Source: Fibrobacter sp. UWB4 (GTDB lineage: Bacteria; Fibrobacterota; Fibrobacteria; Fibrobacterales; Fibrobacteraceae). From it: a stretch of DNA of 64,000 nt. Numbering within the stretch: the stretch's first letter is position 1; the number at the start of each line of letters is the position of its first letter. A model generated the notes under the pieces. That model did no database searches, had not been told where the DNA came from, and saw only the letters and a program-made list of their open reading frames with translations. A program made the translations under genes and the position numbers. Where the stretch lies: contig NZ_MWQI01000007.1 of NCBI RefSeq assembly GCF_002210345.1, forward strand, positions 1-64,000. Direction: 5' to 3'. Positions 6,301-19,910 of this stretch are shown in pieces.

Positions 6301-7645
6301 CGGTCCGGACGATATCCTCGTCGGTAAGGTTACCCCGAAGGGCGAAACCGAACTCACTCCGGAAGAACGTTTGCTCCGTGCCATCTTCGGCGAAAAGGCC
6401 GGCGATGTGCGTGACTCTTCCCTCAAGGCTCCTCCGGGAATGAAGGGCGTCGTGCTCGAAACCCGTATCTTCAGCAAGAAGGACAAGGCCGACAAGAAGA
6501 GCAAGGAAAAGGATCAGGAAACGATCGAAGAAATTCGTCAGAATTTCCAGAGCCAGATCGACCGCATCAAGGATGCATGCCGTGAACACTTGTTCGACCT
6601 CCTCGCAGGCAAGTCTGCTGGCAAGGTCATGGACAACGAAACTCACGAACTCCTCATCCGCGAAGGCCAGACTTATAACGAACAGAACCTCAGATTCATC
6701 GACGTGACGAAGGTCTCTCCGAACTCCACATTCGTTGTGGATGACGATGACCTCCAGGACAAGGTGCTCTCTCTCGTTCTCGTCGCCCGCGACAACCTCG
6801 ATACCCTTACCCGCACGATGGAAAAGGAAATCGACAAGGTCACGAAGGGTGACGAACTCAAGCCGGGCGTCTTGAAGAGCGTCAAGGTCTACATCGCAAA
6901 GAAGCGCTGCCTCTCCATCGGTGACAAGATGGCTGGTCGCCACGGTAACAAGGGTGTCGTCTCGAGAATCGTTCCGGTCGAAGACATGCCGTTCACTGAA
7001 GACGGTCGTCCGCTCCAGATTCTTCTGAACCCGCTGGGTGTGCCTTCTCGTATGAACATCGGTCAGGTGCTTGAAGTTCACTTGGGCTGGGCTGCAAAGA
7101 CTCTCGGCTTCAAGGTGACGACTCCTGTGTTCGACGGTGCCAAGTTCGAAGATATCTGCAAGGAACTCGAAAAGGCTTACCAGAAGAACCCGATCGTGAA
7201 CTACGAAATGGATCCGGATAACAACAAGATTATCGGTAAGGCCAAGCTTTACGACGGCAAGACCGGTGAAGCCCTCCTGAACCCGGTGACCATCGGTTAC
7301 ATGTACTACCTCAAGCTCGGTCACTTGGTCGACGACAAGATCCACGCACGTTCTATCGGTAGCTACGCTCTCGTGACGCAGCAGCCGCTTGGCGGTAAGA
7401 GCCAGTTCGGTGGCCAGCGCTTCGGTGAAATGGAAGTGTGGGCTATGGAAGCTTACGGCGCCGCTTATACGTTGCAGGAACTCCTCACCGTCAAGTCTGA
7501 CGATGTACAGGGCCGTTCCAAGGTCTATGACGCCATTGTCAAGGGTCAGAATACTCCGAAGCCGGGTATCCCTGAATCCTTCAATGTTATGATTCGCGAA
7601 GTTCATTCTTTGGGTCTTGATATCGAGACCACTGGAGACAAGTAA
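3356..7645 (+). CDS. rpoB: DNA-directed RNA polymerase subunit beta
   Basis: A 1429-residue RNA polymerase beta subunit. The rifampicin-pocket region is intact and wild type in appearance (SQLSQFMDQMNPLSELTHKRR, about residues 486-506). The C-terminal catalytic and clamp motifs GDKMAGRHGNKG and the terminal GEMEVWAMEAYGAAYTLQE are present. A lysine-rich charged segment (KKDKADKKSKEKDQE, about residue 1042) marks a lineage-specific insertion. The ATG follows GATGAGGTATTTCTA. rpoC begins two bases after the stop, so the two are translationally coupled. The long open frame on the opposite strand is a codon-bias shadow. Confidence 0.97.
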   Translation: MTTERKSYSSNKFHLELPYLIEVQKASYEQFLQKDIPQEKRMNVGLERVFRDIFPITDDKDLYSLKYEGYYFGIPKYSIPECRERGLTYSMELFATLSLQVFEKDGEESKLKEEIKNDVLVCELPIMTENGTFIINGAERVVVSQLHRSPGVSFDEEMQPNGRSDYKSRIIPHRGAWVEFNTEGDILYLIIDRKKKIAATAMLRCIGFETTQDILNLFYKKTDEIVLDDAAFNDFDKEGVCTLINRIIFNDVVDEETGEIILEANTVIDDKKLERLRESSVEKITVLSKEEDNLLIHYTLAADKTKSREDALKAVYSVTHQQQEEAPNLQTAERYFDELFLNDPHKYDLGEVGRYRLNAKVYTAAILAKVKEVAERFDRVNEFKMPSVTQMTMSKTDFLAIIEYMVGLFNGDEGYTLDDIDHLGNRRTRSVGELLAGQISVGLSRMSRVIRENLSLHSEEEQTTPRELVNTRMVSTVVQAFFGQSQLSQFMDQMNPLSELTHKRRLSALGPGGLTRERAGFEVRDVHYTHYGRLCPIETPEGPNIGLINSLASYAVVNHFGFIETPYRIVGLVEFKDAQGNKCYFPEEKWHFGIFKGFVHDPHLFVELELTQKEIDTVRLNLDNRQRELFEGFVNKVFQLKDADGNVSYCKNGFALDDFDGTPDYVQVGDVVEQIVSDYISYLTADEEDSFKVAPASTELDENNRFKGDMDGYVIVRDKSEYPHLMKQDSIAIGDTETERIDLMDVAPMQIVSVAAGLIPFLEHDDANRALMGSNMQRQAVPLLRAEAPVVGTGLERRAALDSGTVVRAKHDGKVTFVDARHITVQRGNMVNGVFEPLTGLGENYEFLGKDPIDEYTLRKFERSNQDSCINQKPIVNVGDFVKVGDVLADGVSTDHGELALGKNILIGFLPWNGYNYEDAVIISEELAIKDTFTSIHIEEYEMEVRDTKRGPEELTREIPNVGEDALRNLDENGVIRVGAEVGPDDILVGKVTPKGETELTPEERLLRAIFGEKAGDVRDSSLKAPPGMKGVVLETRIFSKKDKADKKSKEKDQETIEEIRQNFQSQIDRIKDACREHLFDLLAGKSAGKVMDNETHELLIREGQTYNEQNLRFIDVTKVSPNSTFVVDDDDLQDKVLSLVLVARDNLDTLTRTMEKEIDKVTKGDELKPGVLKSVKVYIAKKRCLSIGDKMAGRHGNKGVVSRIVPVEDMPFTEDGRPLQILLNPLGVPSRMNIGQVLEVHLGWAAKTLGFKVTTPVFDGAKFEDICKELEKAYQKNPIVNYEMDPDNNKIIGKAKLYDGKTGEALLNPVTIGYMYYLKLGHLVDDKIHARSIGSYALVTQQPLGGKSQFGGQRFGEMEVWAMEAYGAAYTLQELLTVKSDDVQGRSKVYDAIVKGQNTPKPGIPESFNVMIREVHSLGLDIETTGDK

Positions 7646-14251: not shown

Positions 14252-14698
14252 TTAGGATCCCTTAGCTTTTGTTCTCATCTTCGCAATGCCCGCCTTCCAG
14301 GCGTTGACGGCATCTTGCGAGGTGTTGAGCGCTCAGTCGCCTTCGTAGTCTTTGCTTTGGCTGAACCACATCACGGCAAATACGCGTGAGTAGTCGGTGC
14401 GGAAATGCTCGAACATGTCGGTAATCCATTTGGCCTTGCATCCACCTTTTTCGGAACTGGAGATTTCGGCGATAAAGAGCGGCTTGTTTATATTTGCGAG
14501 TGCCTTGTAGGCGTCATCGAAGACTTGCGCAAAGGACTTCCAGCTGGACCAGCTTTGGCTCTTGCCCCAGTTGTACCCGTCAATGGAAAAGTAATCCACA
14601 AATTCGTCGCCGGGATAGTTGCCCGTGAGCGTGGCGCCTTCGCCGTGGTTCGTGACGTTTGTGGTCCAGACCCACTTGACGTTCTTCACGTTTTCTTC
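14252..14698 (-). pseudogene. Truncated GH26 mannanase copy
   Basis: The minus strand encodes the C-terminal half of the catalytic domain found in the intact mannanase immediately downstream on this map (14921-16069). Homology begins at NVKWVWTTN (residue about 165 of the intact protein) and runs through GNYPGDE, SIDGYNWGK and the nucleophile segment KPLFIAEISSSE. The N-terminal half with the catalytic acid/base is missing. The Trp codon of the motif EGDW is changed to TGA at 14333-14335, after which the frame stays open as ALNTSQDAV to a TAA at 14252-14254. The copy also lacks the C-terminal domain. It is a decayed tandem duplicate and unlikely to be active. Confidence 0.88.
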
Positions 14699-14840
14699 GC
14701 AGAAAATCAGAATTATTGGTGATGTTCCCTTTTGCGTGCATACAAATTCTAAGAGCCGTTTCAATCGGTCAAAAACTCGGCTCTGATTGATTCCATAAAG
14801 CGGCGATTATGGCTATTCCGTTTGGAGAAGCTTAGTAGGA

Positions 14841-14920: not shown

Positions 14921-16069
14921 TTAGCGCTTCACGGAGAGCTTGAATAGGCTTCGCGTACTTGCCTTGGGGGCGTCGATAGCGTGTACGCCCGCGGAGAAGT
15001 GCTGCACCGGGCTCTGCCATAGGACGCGGCCCTGGTAGTCAAACTGCACGACGCTTGCCTTTAATGCTTTGCCGGTCTGCATGTAGAGCTTGCCGTCTTG
15101 CAGGCGAAAGGAGCTGCTGGATGCCCTCCCGGCTGGTTTGATGGAGGTGCTGCTGTCCAAGGCCTTCATCTTCGCGATGCCCGCCTTCCATGCATCAACT
15201 GCAGCCTGCGAGGTGTTGAGTGCCCAGTCGCCTTCGTTATCTTCCTTGCTCTGGCTGAACCACATCACTGCGAATACGCGGGAGAAGTCGGTCGCGAAGT
15301 GCTCGAACATGTCGGTAATCCATTCAGCCTTGTTGCCGCCAAGTTCGGAGCTGGAAATTTCAGCGATAAAGAGCGGCTTGTTGATCTTGGCGAGTGCGTC
15401 GTAGGATTTTTTGAACACCTGCGAGAACGTCTGCCAGCTAGACCAACTCTGGCATTTGCCCCAGTTGTAGCCGTCGATGGAGATGTAGTCGACGTATTCG
15501 TCGCCGGGGTAGTTGCCGGTAAGCGTCGAACCCTTTCCTGCGTTTGAGGCGTTGGTGGTCCATACCCATTTGACGTTCGTTACGCCTTCTTCCTTGAAGA
15601 TTTTTACGATATGACGGAATGCTTCGGCGACGTTTGCGTCGGTGTTTCCGGCGCCAGCCTTGCCTACGCCCCAGTCGTACCAGTCGCCGTTTGCTTCGTG
15701 AAGCGGCCTGAGCCAGATTTCTTCGCCGTAGTCTTTGACGCCCTTGGCGTATTCGCGGATGTATTCATCGGCCTTGCCGTTCACCAAATCCTGGGCGTTG
15801 TAGCCGTTTGCCATCCAGGTCACCACAAGCGTGGAGCCGTTGTCTTTCGCAACATTTGCGAATTCCTCGGTTGCGTTCCAGTCGTTCACGTCAAAGAGCG
15901 CGAAATAGCTGATGAGGTCGATATGTGTGCCCTGCAAATCCTGGAATGCCTGCACGTTTTCTTGGGTGGGCTGCGGGTATTGGCCGGGGCCACCGACCCA
16001 GGCGCCGACTTGGAATGCTAAAGCGGTCATAGGCAAGATCCCCAATGTGAAGAGTAGTGATTTGAACAT
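14921..16069 (-). CDS. Secreted endo-beta-1,4-mannanase, GH26 family
   Basis: A 382-residue protein. A signal peptide (MFKSLLFTLGILPMTALA) is followed by a glycoside hydrolase family 26 (beta/alpha)8 domain (about 20-298). The catalytic acid/base is E125 in LRPLHEANGDW and the likely nucleophile is E237 in PLFIAEISSSE, the family-conserved positions. GH26 enzymes mostly cut beta-1,4-mannan. The C-terminal 80 residues (SSSSFRLQDGKLYMQTGKAL onward) look like a beta-sandwich sorting domain of the type used by type IX secretion (QGRVLW, then AGVHAI, ending FKLSVKR). That reading is inference. It is transcribed divergently from the regulator at 16214, which may control it. Confidence 0.9.
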   Translation of the reverse strand: MFKSLLFTLGILPMTALAFQVGAWVGGPGQYPQPTQENVQAFQDLQGTHIDLISYFALFDVNDWNATEEFANVAKDNGSTLVVTWMANGYNAQDLVNGKADEYIREYAKGVKDYGEEIWLRPLHEANGDWYDWGVGKAGAGNTDANVAEAFRHIVKIFKEEGVTNVKWVWTTNASNAGKGSTLTGNYPGDEYVDYISIDGYNWGKCQSWSSWQTFSQVFKKSYDALAKINKPLFIAEISSSELGGNKAEWITDMFEHFATDFSRVFAVMWFSQSKEDNEGDWALNTSQAAVDAWKAGIAKMKALDSSTSIKPAGRASSSSFRLQDGKLYMQTGKALKASVVQFDYQGRVLWQSPVQHFSAGVHAIDAPKASTRSLFKLSVKR

Positions 16070-16213
16070 AGTAGCCCTCGATATTCAAAAAGTTGAAGTT
16101 TATTTTGTTTCCTTACATAAATTAGGTTACTAGGCTTTCCCTGTATCTGAATTTTTTGTATGTTCGTGCTATAGTGTATCTAGTGTTATAAAATGAGGTG
16201 AGGGACCGTTTTT

Positions 16214-17533
16214 ATGACAGTCGAAGATTTTTGCAAGTGGATTGGATCGTCTAATTTCAAGGATGGGGATCGGCTCCCGTCCGTGCGCGAGGTGGCGGCG
16301 TCTTCGGGGGCGTCGACGTTCACCATTTTCCGTGCTTACAAGAAGCTGGCGTCTCAGGGGAAGATTTATGGGGAACATGGCAACGGGTATTTTTGGGGGA
16401 TGAAACCTAAAATCGAGGTGCCTGCGCATGAACTCGAAACGGAACGCGTAGAGCGATTGCTGCTGGAGGACTGGAAGTCGGGAAAGATTTCGGTTAATCG
16501 CCCGCTTCCATCAATCAAGGACATGTGTCAGTCTTATGCGACGACGTTGGGGACCATGCGGCGTACACTGGAATCATTGCATGCAAATGGAATTTTGGAA
16601 CGCAGGGGGCAAGGGCGTTATTATTTTGTCGATGCCCGGTTGGCGGTTTCTAAGACAAAAGAAATTCTCCTGATTATGCGTTGCAACCCTAACGGGGATT
16701 TTAATTGTCTTGGCGAACGCGAACTTTCGTTTATGCGAAAAGTGTATGTGGAAGCGCACCGTAATAACTTAAACGTCAAGGCGCTTGGCTATTACGAAGA
16801 AGAGGGCGCATTTTTGGATGCGAACGGCAACCGCATCAAGCTGGAAGAATGCCGAGGCTGCTTTGGAGCCGTTGTCTCGACGATGCTCGTATTCGATATC
16901 AATAAACTATTTGCAAAACTTGCGGCAACGCGTTTCCCTGTAGCAGTGTGGTGGGAGCACCCGCTGTACGACATTCCGCGTGCGTTGAAAAAAGAAAAGC
17001 GATTTGCGTTTTTCAACCTCGCCTTTGGTGAGTTCCCGGGACGCATTGTCGGGCGTTTTCTGAAGAAAAAAGGCTTGACGCGGATAGCCTTTGTTTCTCC
17101 GTATCACATGAGCATGTGGTCGAGGGACCGCTTGAAAGGTCTCAAGAATGTGGGGCTTGAGGTGTTCGAAGCGACTGATGCCTCGCATGCGAGCCCTTAT
17201 GACTTTATGCAGGAACCGCGTGCACATGCCCTTTATAGACAAATTTTAATGACGCTCGTGAAAAAAATCCCGCCTGTGGATGCGTGGGTTGTTTCTAACG
17301 ACAGGGTCGGTGTCGAGCTGATTTCGCTTGCGAACCAGGGCAAGATTCCGCTCCCGCCTTACATGGTTTCGTTCGACAACTCTACGGATAGCTACCGCAA
17401 CCGCCTGGATTCTTTCGAGTTCAACGTGGAAACGCTTGCTGAACAGTCTGTGTTTCACTTGGTTTCGCCGGGTATTACCTTGTATAAAAAAGGCGATTTC
17501 CGTGAACTCTCGGGGCATGTTGTCAAGAAGTAA
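16214..17533 (+). CDS. Regulator with tandem GntR-type winged helices and LacI-type sensor domain
   Basis: A 439-residue cytoplasmic regulator. The first GntR-like winged helix spans about residues 1-63 (RLPSVREVAASSGASTFTIF and GKIYGEHGNGYF). A second, similar unit spans about 75-138 (PLPSIKDMCQSYATTLGTMR and GILERRGQGRYYF). The rest (about 150-430) resembles a periplasmic-binding-protein fold as in LacI/GalR regulators, with SNDRVGVELISLANQGKIPLP and a FDNS segment close to the LacI D-N-S motif. Standard GntR/LacI hybrids have a single winged helix. It is divergent from the mannanase, so a role in sensing mannan-derived sugars is plausible but not shown. Confidence 0.8.
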   Translation: MTVEDFCKWIGSSNFKDGDRLPSVREVAASSGASTFTIFRAYKKLASQGKIYGEHGNGYFWGMKPKIEVPAHELETERVERLLLEDWKSGKISVNRPLPSIKDMCQSYATTLGTMRRTLESLHANGILERRGQGRYYFVDARLAVSKTKEILLIMRCNPNGDFNCLGERELSFMRKVYVEAHRNNLNVKALGYYEEEGAFLDANGNRIKLEECRGCFGAVVSTMLVFDINKLFAKLAATRFPVAVWWEHPLYDIPRALKKEKRFAFFNLAFGEFPGRIVGRFLKKKGLTRIAFVSPYHMSMWSRDRLKGLKNVGLEVFEATDASHASPYDFMQEPRAHALYRQILMTLVKKIPPVDAWVVSNDRVGVELISLANQGKIPLPPYMVSFDNSTDSYRNRLDSFEFNVETLAEQSVFHLVSPGITLYKKGDFRELSGHVVKK

Positions 17534-19025: not shown

Positions 19026-19100
19026 AAATTCAAAGTGTCTCTAGTGTTTGGTTGCTGAGAAATTATTTTATATATATACCTATATTGCAAGGACATTTTT

Positions 19101-19910
19101 ATGAAAAAGATTTTTGAGAGCTGTGTTTTGATGATTTCTATTCTTGCCGCTGGAGCTTCGGCCAAAGGACTTTATTTGGAAGGTTCTTTGGGCATCGCCA
19201 AGGCGGATTACGTGGAACAGGAACGCCCTCGCAGGTTGCAACAGGCCGATGACCATGTTGGAGAATGCCTCGACATTGAGGGTTGCAAGGATACGGGACC
19301 TAGCGGGGATTATGCTCCGCGGGATAGGGTGGAATACGTGGGCTATGGCCCAGTGCTGGATTTGAAAGTGGGGTATGGCTGGGAAAAACTGGCTGTATTT
19401 GGTGTTATTCAGGGAGCGTACACCGAAGGTTTCCATGTATTTGATTGTTATGTAATGAGTAAACCCGTGGAATACAATGGCGACCATGAAGGTTATGCGT
19501 TCCACAATCATAGAGTGGAGTATGAAGACTATCTTCGCTATAGTGAGCTTCATTCCTTTTCAACGCGATTGTTCTTTGGGGCCGGATTTACGGTATTTCC
19601 CTTTGCAAAAAAAGAATCGCCCTTGACGGGTTTCCATGCCGGCGCATCATTCGGTTTTTCTATTATCGAGACGCAGGTAGAAGAGGAAAAGACTGGTGTT
19701 GCAGACAGGAATCATGGTGCTATTGAGATAACATCTGCCCCAAATTACAGCCTCACTTTTGATGTGGGACATACTTGGTCTGTTAACGAAAAATGGAATA
19801 TGGGTGTTGCTTTGACCGCGGCGTTTGAAAATCCTGTTGAATTTGAAAAGGAATACAGCATGTTCAACCTTCATACAATTTGGGTGGGGTTGCGGTTTGC
19901 CAGGAAGTAG
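19101..19910 (+). CDS. Exported beta-rich protein of unknown function
   Basis: 269 residues with signal peptide MKKIFESCVLMISILAAGASA. The mature protein has alternating aromatic strands (LYLEGSLGIAKADY, VLDLKVGYGWEKLAVFGVIQGAY, FHAGASFGFSIIETQ) and ends YSMFNLHTIWVGLRFARK, a typical outer-membrane barrel ending. It contains a Cys pair (GECLDIEGCKD). It is not obviously homologous to the paralogues on either side. CAAGGA lies 9 bases before the ATG, and a TATATT at about 19080 could be a -10. An outer-membrane location is inference. Confidence 0.75.
   Translation: MKKIFESCVLMISILAAGASAKGLYLEGSLGIAKADYVEQERPRRLQQADDHVGECLDIEGCKDTGPSGDYAPRDRVEYVGYGPVLDLKVGYGWEKLAVFGVIQGAYTEGFHVFDCYVMSKPVEYNGDHEGYAFHNHRVEYEDYLRYSELHSFSTRLFFGAGFTVFPFAKKESPLTGFHAGASFGFSIIETQVEEEKTGVADRNHGAIEITSAPNYSLTFDVGHTWSVNEKWNMGVALTAAFENPVEFEKEYSMFNLHTIWVGLRFARK

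Follow-up and report, generated by a model that had tools for sequence, protein, structure and literature searches.

AraR of Bacillus subtilis is a repressor that has one winged helix per chain and recognizes a palindromic operator. Activators of the AraC family carry two helix-turn-helix units per chain, which occupy adjacent major grooves, often upstream of the sugar genes that are activated. The chains of MocR-type regulators have one winged helix. The MocR-type regulators GabR and PdxR are described as being divergent from their target, as acting as autorepressor and activator from one intergenic region, and as having direct repeats in the operator (PMC5320631), and the PdxR box is given as AAAGTGGW(-/T)CTA (PMC4494728). 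Our literature search, made mostly at the level of search results, found no description of tandem GntR regulators and no named regulator or operator for the fibre-degrading genes of Fibrobacter. We have analyzed one such tandem regulator in a 64,000-nucleotide stretch of DNA from Fibrobacter sp. UWB4 (hereafter, the window). We favor, with moderate confidence, a model built on sequence comparison in which the tandem helices would read tandem half-sites and the regulator would repress its own gene and activate hydrolase genes through the predicted binding. The features of the regulator are the following.

16214 to 17533, plus strand: gene of the regulator (439 aa), which belongs to family A among the tandem-GntR/LacI-sensor proteins of Fibrobacter
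16220 to 16396, plus strand: unit 1 winged helix, residues 3-61, PF00392 when scored alone, helix-helix-helix-hairpin in the model, match to 2du9
16436 to 16627, plus strand: unit 2 winged helix, residues 75-138, PF00392 when scored alone, matches to 1hw1 and 5d4r
16658 to 17530, plus strand: LacI-type sensor, residues 149-439, matches to 3miz_B, 3tb6_B and 5ysz_A, weak PF13377

The preliminary description of this locus had placed two GntR-type winged helices ahead of a LacI-like sensor. The motifs on which it relied (RLPSVREV/PLPSIKDM and GNGYF/GQGRYYF) are present in the regulator ORF, and PF00392 was found twice, as it had anticipated (58.9 bits, E 3.8e-16). Each unit also exceeded the cut-off of 27 by itself, with 35.4 bits for unit 1 (residues 1-66) and 32.1 bits for unit 2 (residues 67-149), and both fall within the GntR superfamily as defined by an N-terminal PF00392 match above the curated cut-off. 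Peripla_BP_3 (PF13377) at residues 282-411 stayed under its cut-off (21.8 vs. 26.5), and the LacI-type HTH (PF00356) was absent from the Pfam hits of the whole regulator up to E 10.

The AlphaFold2 model of the whole regulator, computed from 40 aligned sequences, had a pLDDT of 89.3. Unit 1 consists of helices 3-12, 24-31 and 35-47 and strands 51-54 and 58-61, unit 2 of helices 75-89, 101-108 and 112-124 and strands 128-131 and 135-138, and the sensor begins at residue 149. With the whole model, structure matches were obtained only over the sensor, and residues 1-147 were modeled and searched separately. In this second model, unit 2 matched the FadR-DNA complex 1hw1 (Z 12.2, rmsd 1.7, 73 aligned) and AraR-DNA 5d4r (Z 11.2), and unit 1 matched 2du9 (Z 10.7, 64 aligned). 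Residues 148-439 matched LacI-family chains, namely 3miz_B (Z 20.1), the AraR sensor 3tb6_B (Z 18.1) and the CelR-cellobiose structure 5ysz_A (Z 18.0). Both parts of the proposed architecture were thus borne out, the two GntR-type helices by Pfam scores above the cut-off for each alone and by fold matches to solved GntR domains, the sensor by its fold match in the model. Unit 2, on which the preliminary reading hinged, is a winged helix in the predicted structure. We ruled out that it is a degenerate repeat, as it passes the cut-off alone and has a signature of its own that is conserved throughout the phylum.

The tandem arrangement occurs across Fibrobacterota and is not a one-off. Relatives of the regulator were present in 71 of the 80 genomes of the genus, and profile matches in 118 of 167 phylum genomes. 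The genus has three paralog groups, A (the window regulator), B and C, with both units in the alignment for all of them. The window genome encodes one of each plus a fourth GntR gene, apparently PdxR, beside a PdxS-like gene. Among 72 distinct distant ORFs in which a winged helix was matched, 66 had two units, a median of 77 residues apart; this rate is biased because the ORFs were collected with the tandem profile. Unit 1 of the distant proteins scored better with the Fibrobacter unit-1 model in 61/66 cases, and unit 2 with the unit-2 model in 63/66. Since the two identities are kept apart in distant proteins, the tandem would most simply be one old arrangement with two separate roles, and not the outcome of repeated recent duplications.

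Large expansions of tandem-GntR/LacI-sensor proteins were seen in the distant Fibrobacterota genomes G117, G115 and G112 (L249-L280), with 66, 29 and 22 profile matches, respectively. A scan of contigs returned 80 loci, all labeled Fibrobacter, Fibrobacteraceae, Fibrobacterales or Fibrobacteres/Fibrobacteria except for two Treponema MAG contigs. The regulator A proteins encoded by the latter (L085 and L092) are 94% and 80% identical to that of the window, and both are probably Fibrobacter contigs in mis-binned or mis-labeled genomes. Searching plasmids with the query gave three records that covered 15-22% of it. A B-type regulator is divergent from a gene for a small secreted protein (L061, 4322-4930, minus strand), which resembles the Fibrobacter major paralogous domain; no ACASTT repeat was seen by eye in the promoters of B-type paralogs, L061 included.

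The regulator gene has a divergent neighbor, and the intergenic region between them contains the candidate regulatory elements. These and a second operator-like site are listed below.

14921 to 16069, minus strand: GH26 mannanase gene, presumed target and divergent partner, PF02156 with E 4.4e-14
16119 to 16124, minus strand: putative GH26 -10 box TAATTT, 48 nt from the operator core
16159 to 16164, plus strand: putative regulator -10 box TATGTT, proposed from the sequence, with a conserved T-A-T there
16171 to 16187, plus strand: operator candidate ATAGTGTATCTAGTGTT, core 16173-16187, in which A(S)TGT is directly repeated at a conserved period of 9
19032 to 19048, plus strand: second operator-like site AAAGTGTCTCTAGTGTT, 5' of ORF 19101-19910 (plus strand)

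The neighbor is indeed the divergent mannanase gene that the regulator had been said to face. Counting the window, GH26 divergently adjoins regulator A in 28 of 33 loci (27/32 among the loci fetched, from 32 genomes). In genomes at 60% identity the GH26 pair is retained, and no other gene of the window that was compared lies nearby. The five loci in which GH26 is not adjacent to regulator A are L017, L018, L043, L047 and L048. An operator-bearing GH26 gene lies elsewhere on the same contig in G012, G020 and G042, which have non-adjacent loci; the GH26 genes of G067 are at least 16 kb from regulator A, and G066 gave no GH26 match at E<=1e-90.

Several other GH26 arrangements were observed. A short ORF of the window (14333-14764, minus strand) aligns with GH26 and is apparently the remnant of a second mannanase gene, and a second GH26 gene follows the first in L239 and L325. 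In L246 and L247, the neighbor of an operator-bearing GH26 gene is a regulator A remnant that has a large internal deletion. In L373 (G025), the divergent partner of GH26 is another tandem regulator (L078, 32% identical), and the diverged operator AACACTTGAAACGGTT lies between the two.

Paired half-sites, which the preliminary description had expected within 16,070-16,213, were found at 16173-16187, where the core 15-mer AGTGTATCTAGTGTT lies between the regulator and GH26. The repeat has the form A(S)TGT-N4-A(S)TGT, which reads ACASTN-GAT-ACASTT on the other strand. Taken alone, the 5-base direct repeat in the 17-mer is weak evidence (shuffle P 0.028, i.e., 2.8% of shuffles). An inverted repeat was ruled out as the form of the operator, the best inverted run in the 17-mer being 4 and the direct run 5.

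The 15-mer was present 5' of regulator A in all 35 loci examined, in 32 of them exactly and in three with one change. Together with 12 GH26-only sites, these form 47 collected sites, 38 of which equal AGTGTATCTAGTGTT. Position 2 is G in 43 and C in 4, position 11 is G in 42 and C in 5, and three sites carry one other change each. The G/C exchanges at these two positions, which are equivalent under a 9-bp shift, are the sole recurrent core changes. The operator was retained at regulator A in 5/5 loci without an adjacent GH26 gene.

Searching the 80 genus genomes for the exact 15-mer gave 47 copies, a set that overlaps with but differs from the 47 collected sites, and one copy for the reversed control. 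By coordinates, 35 of the 47 exact copies lie just 5' of regulator A, and each of the other 12 is found some 100-120 bp away from the start of a GH26 gene, of which, in L240, just 27 residues are visible at the contig end. We therefore rejected the idea that the motif is a general element of promoters or ribosome sites, since exact copies occur at two gene types only and the reversed control gave one; the distance to the regulator start also ranges from 14 to 126 nt. The exact operator was found in 35 of 38 genomes with regulator A and in 1 of 42 without it (Fisher 4.9e-18, uncorrected for kinship). Of the three A genomes that lack an exact copy, two (G022 and G049) differ by one change each, and in the third (G062) the gene start is missing.

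The second operator-like site, AAAGTGTCTCTAGTGTT at 19032-19048, is identical to the operator variant of the second mannanase. This 17-mer is also found before a GH26 gene in G017, G042, G067 and G075, and the variant recurs in L046 (core at 6789) before a homologue of ORF 19101-19910, an ORF that had no Pfam hit. In G067, no operator lies within 170 nt of the start of the first GH26 gene. An operator shared with the genome's own PdxR-like gene was ruled out, as the L080 intergenic region had no match to the 17-mer at fewer than 5 mismatches.

The position of the operator relative to the two putative promoters suggests how it may act. Among 20 GH26-bearing representatives (<72% alike, compared ungapped and anchored on the 15-mer), a -10-like TAWTTT is conserved; no conserved -35 was seen in these 20 promoters, an absence that has no baseline. 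The best -10-like hexamer lies 48 or 49 nt from the operator in 39 of 42 GH26 sites (the exceptions being L059, L060 and L246), as compared with 261/4000 (6.5%) for random anchors and 0-2/42 for anchors shifted by 3-12 nt. Taking the -10 hexamer as -12 to -7, the operator center would be at about -68 of the GH26 start, and, counted from the putative regulator -10 box, the operator would span about +3 to +17 of the regulator transcript. The former is a usual place for activators and the latter for repressors.

We propose that the protein would be a sugar-responsive factor, with two tandem GntR winged helices fused to a LacI-type sensor, and that the two helices of one chain would read half-sites A(G/C)TGT lying on one strand, 9 bp apart. 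The single operator of the window would serve both promoters. Because it would overlap the regulator's own transcript start, binding should shut off the regulator gene, and because it would lie at about -68 with a fixed spacing, binding should assist RNA polymerase in initiating transcription of the mannanase gene. The state of the regulator would be set by a sugar, probably a manno- or gluco-oligosaccharide, and the paralogs would act on cellulase, xylanase and lichenase genes through operators of this type with the same spacing. Within this model we infer the binding of the operator by A, autorepression, activation, the ligand and the placement of one chain over both half-sites.

The same geometry bears on whether the protein could be a pure repressor of both genes that is released by sugar, in the manner of AraR. 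AraR shares the sensor type and the GntR winged helix and is named a repressor in the solved chain, but a site that precedes the GH26 -10 box by about 56 bp, with strictly fixed spacing, is unlike an operator that blocks polymerase, and we regard pure repression as quite unlikely.

The two units would have different shares in the reading of the DNA. In 22 A orthologs, the recognition face of unit 1 (R25, S34, T37 and F39) is invariant. Unit 2 keeps K102, R117, R130, G132, G134 and R135 across the same orthologs, whereas the start of its recognition helix (residues 111, 112, 114 and 116) varies while the operator does not. The invariant face of unit 1 and the variation in unit 2 indicate that unit 1 probably supplies most of the base specificity, with unit 2 binding through its basic wing and fewer contacts. 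An Arg of the FadR and AraR recognition helices is described as contacting G (PMC4494728); in our own alignment, this Arg is absent from both units, T35 and L112 standing in its place. This absence and the variation in unit 2 speak against the favored model. The suggestion of the preliminary description that two units in one chain could read a longer or split operator accordingly holds in part: a conserved period-9 direct repeat is present in the intergenic region, and the same repeat type occurs at other hydrolase genes, but an equal reading of the two half-sites by the two units was not supported.

This asymmetry could also arise if A were an ordinary dimer that places two unit-1 helices on the operator, unit 2 providing only a non-specific grip or dimer contacts. 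The invariance of S34, T37 and F39 in the 22 orthologs while their unit 2 equivalents vary, and the conserved basic wing of unit 2, are compatible with such a dimer. A two-fold dimer would, however, favor an inverted repeat, whose run here is the shorter (4 vs. 5), and the wider operator described below completes a hexamer direct repeat. We consider this arrangement rather doubtful, although with an appreciable chance of being right, and retain the reading of tandem half-sites by tandem helices.

Sites of the same type were then found before other hydrolase genes. When one mismatch to the operator was allowed, the sister sequence AAASTGTATCAASTGTT was found before other genes, with a -10 at 48-49 nt in 12/12 sites; two further hits (L321 and L322) were off-spacing and look like chance. 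In many genomes, genes for cellulases, xylanases and lichenases are preceded by the sister operator ACASTT-GAT-ACASTT with the same spacing. A composite pattern (operator + 47 N + TANNTT, up to 2 mismatches) gave 154 matches in 63 of the 80 genomes vs. 13 for the reversed control, so that chance would account for about 13 of the 154. Fifteen of the 16 scanned targets were glycoside hydrolases (GH16, 7; GH5, 3; GH9, 2; GH10, 2; GH26, 1) and one was an M50 peptidase. Among the matches listed, T occupies the free base of the pattern in 94 of 108 typed sites that are not of the GH26 type, and in 42 of 54 distinct 16-mers; with T, the left hexamer ACASTT equals the right one. The GH26/A sites and those of the other hydrolases thus differ at one base, A vs. 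mostly T. Several composite sites are followed, at about 1.2 kb, by a C-type paralog (e.g., G003 C5, G018 C95, G043 C6, G053 C5 and G070 C11), and the gene between site and paralog is a GH16 gene by Pfam in L370 and by eye in L347, L348, L350 and L371. In the window's own genome, the wider operator was not enriched (7 matches vs. 8 for the control at 3 mismatches).

Such a broad distribution raises the question of whether the operator is instead that of another, global activator of fibre enzymes, e.g., of the OmpR type, the tandem-GntR proteins being just members of its regulon. OmpR-type response regulators also read direct repeats, and the wider operator, present in 63/80 genomes before many hydrolase genes, would suit such a factor. 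So would the four genomes that have a GH26-type operator and in which regulator A was not found: in G059 the operator before GH26 is exact, and in G007, G017 and G057 it is a near-variant. These four may have lost the regulator, or their site may be recognized by a different paralog or protein. They count against the favored model, as do the first GH26 gene of G067, which lacks a nearby operator, and the absence of enrichment in the window's own genome. Against a global activator, the operator at A lies just past the putative -10 box, a place for autorepression, and is kept there without an adjacent GH26 gene. Composite sites are also rare in genomes without an A, B or C gene (1/9 vs. 62/71 with one; Fisher 6.7e-6, uncorrected for kinship), as they are at completeness >=90 (0/2 vs. 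40/42; P 0.006, likewise uncorrected), and the one-base difference between GH26/A and other-hydrolase sites is what would be expected of paralogous regulators. We therefore judge a separate global activator unlikely.

Extending the favored model to the paralogs, Fibrobacterota may have their own class of fibre-sensing activators, with two non-equivalent GntR helices per chain and a tandem operator whose halves are 9 bp apart, in which paralogs reading ACASTAGAT vs. ACASTTGAT would control a regulon of mannanase, cellulase, xylanase and lichenase genes. We put this forward tentatively, at slightly less than even confidence. If true, it would provide a cellulase/hemicellulase regulon for Fibrobacter, with a concrete protein, an operator, a spacing rule and a gene list for enzyme switch-on in a major rumen cellulose degrader. 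It would also bring to the large GntR superfamily a new domain arrangement that pairs a doubled DNA-binding unit with a doubled operator.

In comparison with the known systems, the two DNA-binding units per chain recall the AraC family, but the AraC-family units are not GntR winged helices and no kinship is claimed. In plan, the protein is a GntR-superfamily regulator closest to AraR, with which it shares a GntR winged helix before a sensor that is of the LacI/GalR type, the fit of unit 2 to the AraR-DNA structure 5d4r (Z 11.2) and that of the sensor to AraR 3tb6 (Z 18.1). It differs in having two tandem winged helices where the solved DNA-binding chain of AraR has one unit, and it may also differ in its operator, the candidate being a direct repeat where that of AraR is palindromic. 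Having two winged helices, it was not filed as AraR. From the MocR type it differs in its sensor, which is aminotransferase-like there and LacI-type here, with no aminotransferase Pfam hit. The PdxR box AAAGTGGW(-/T)CTA resembles AAAGTGTATCTA. With GabR and PdxR the locus shares the divergent orientation from the presumed target gene, direct repeats in the candidate operator and site positions that would fit both roles, and the regulator would work most like a GabR-style divergon regulator.
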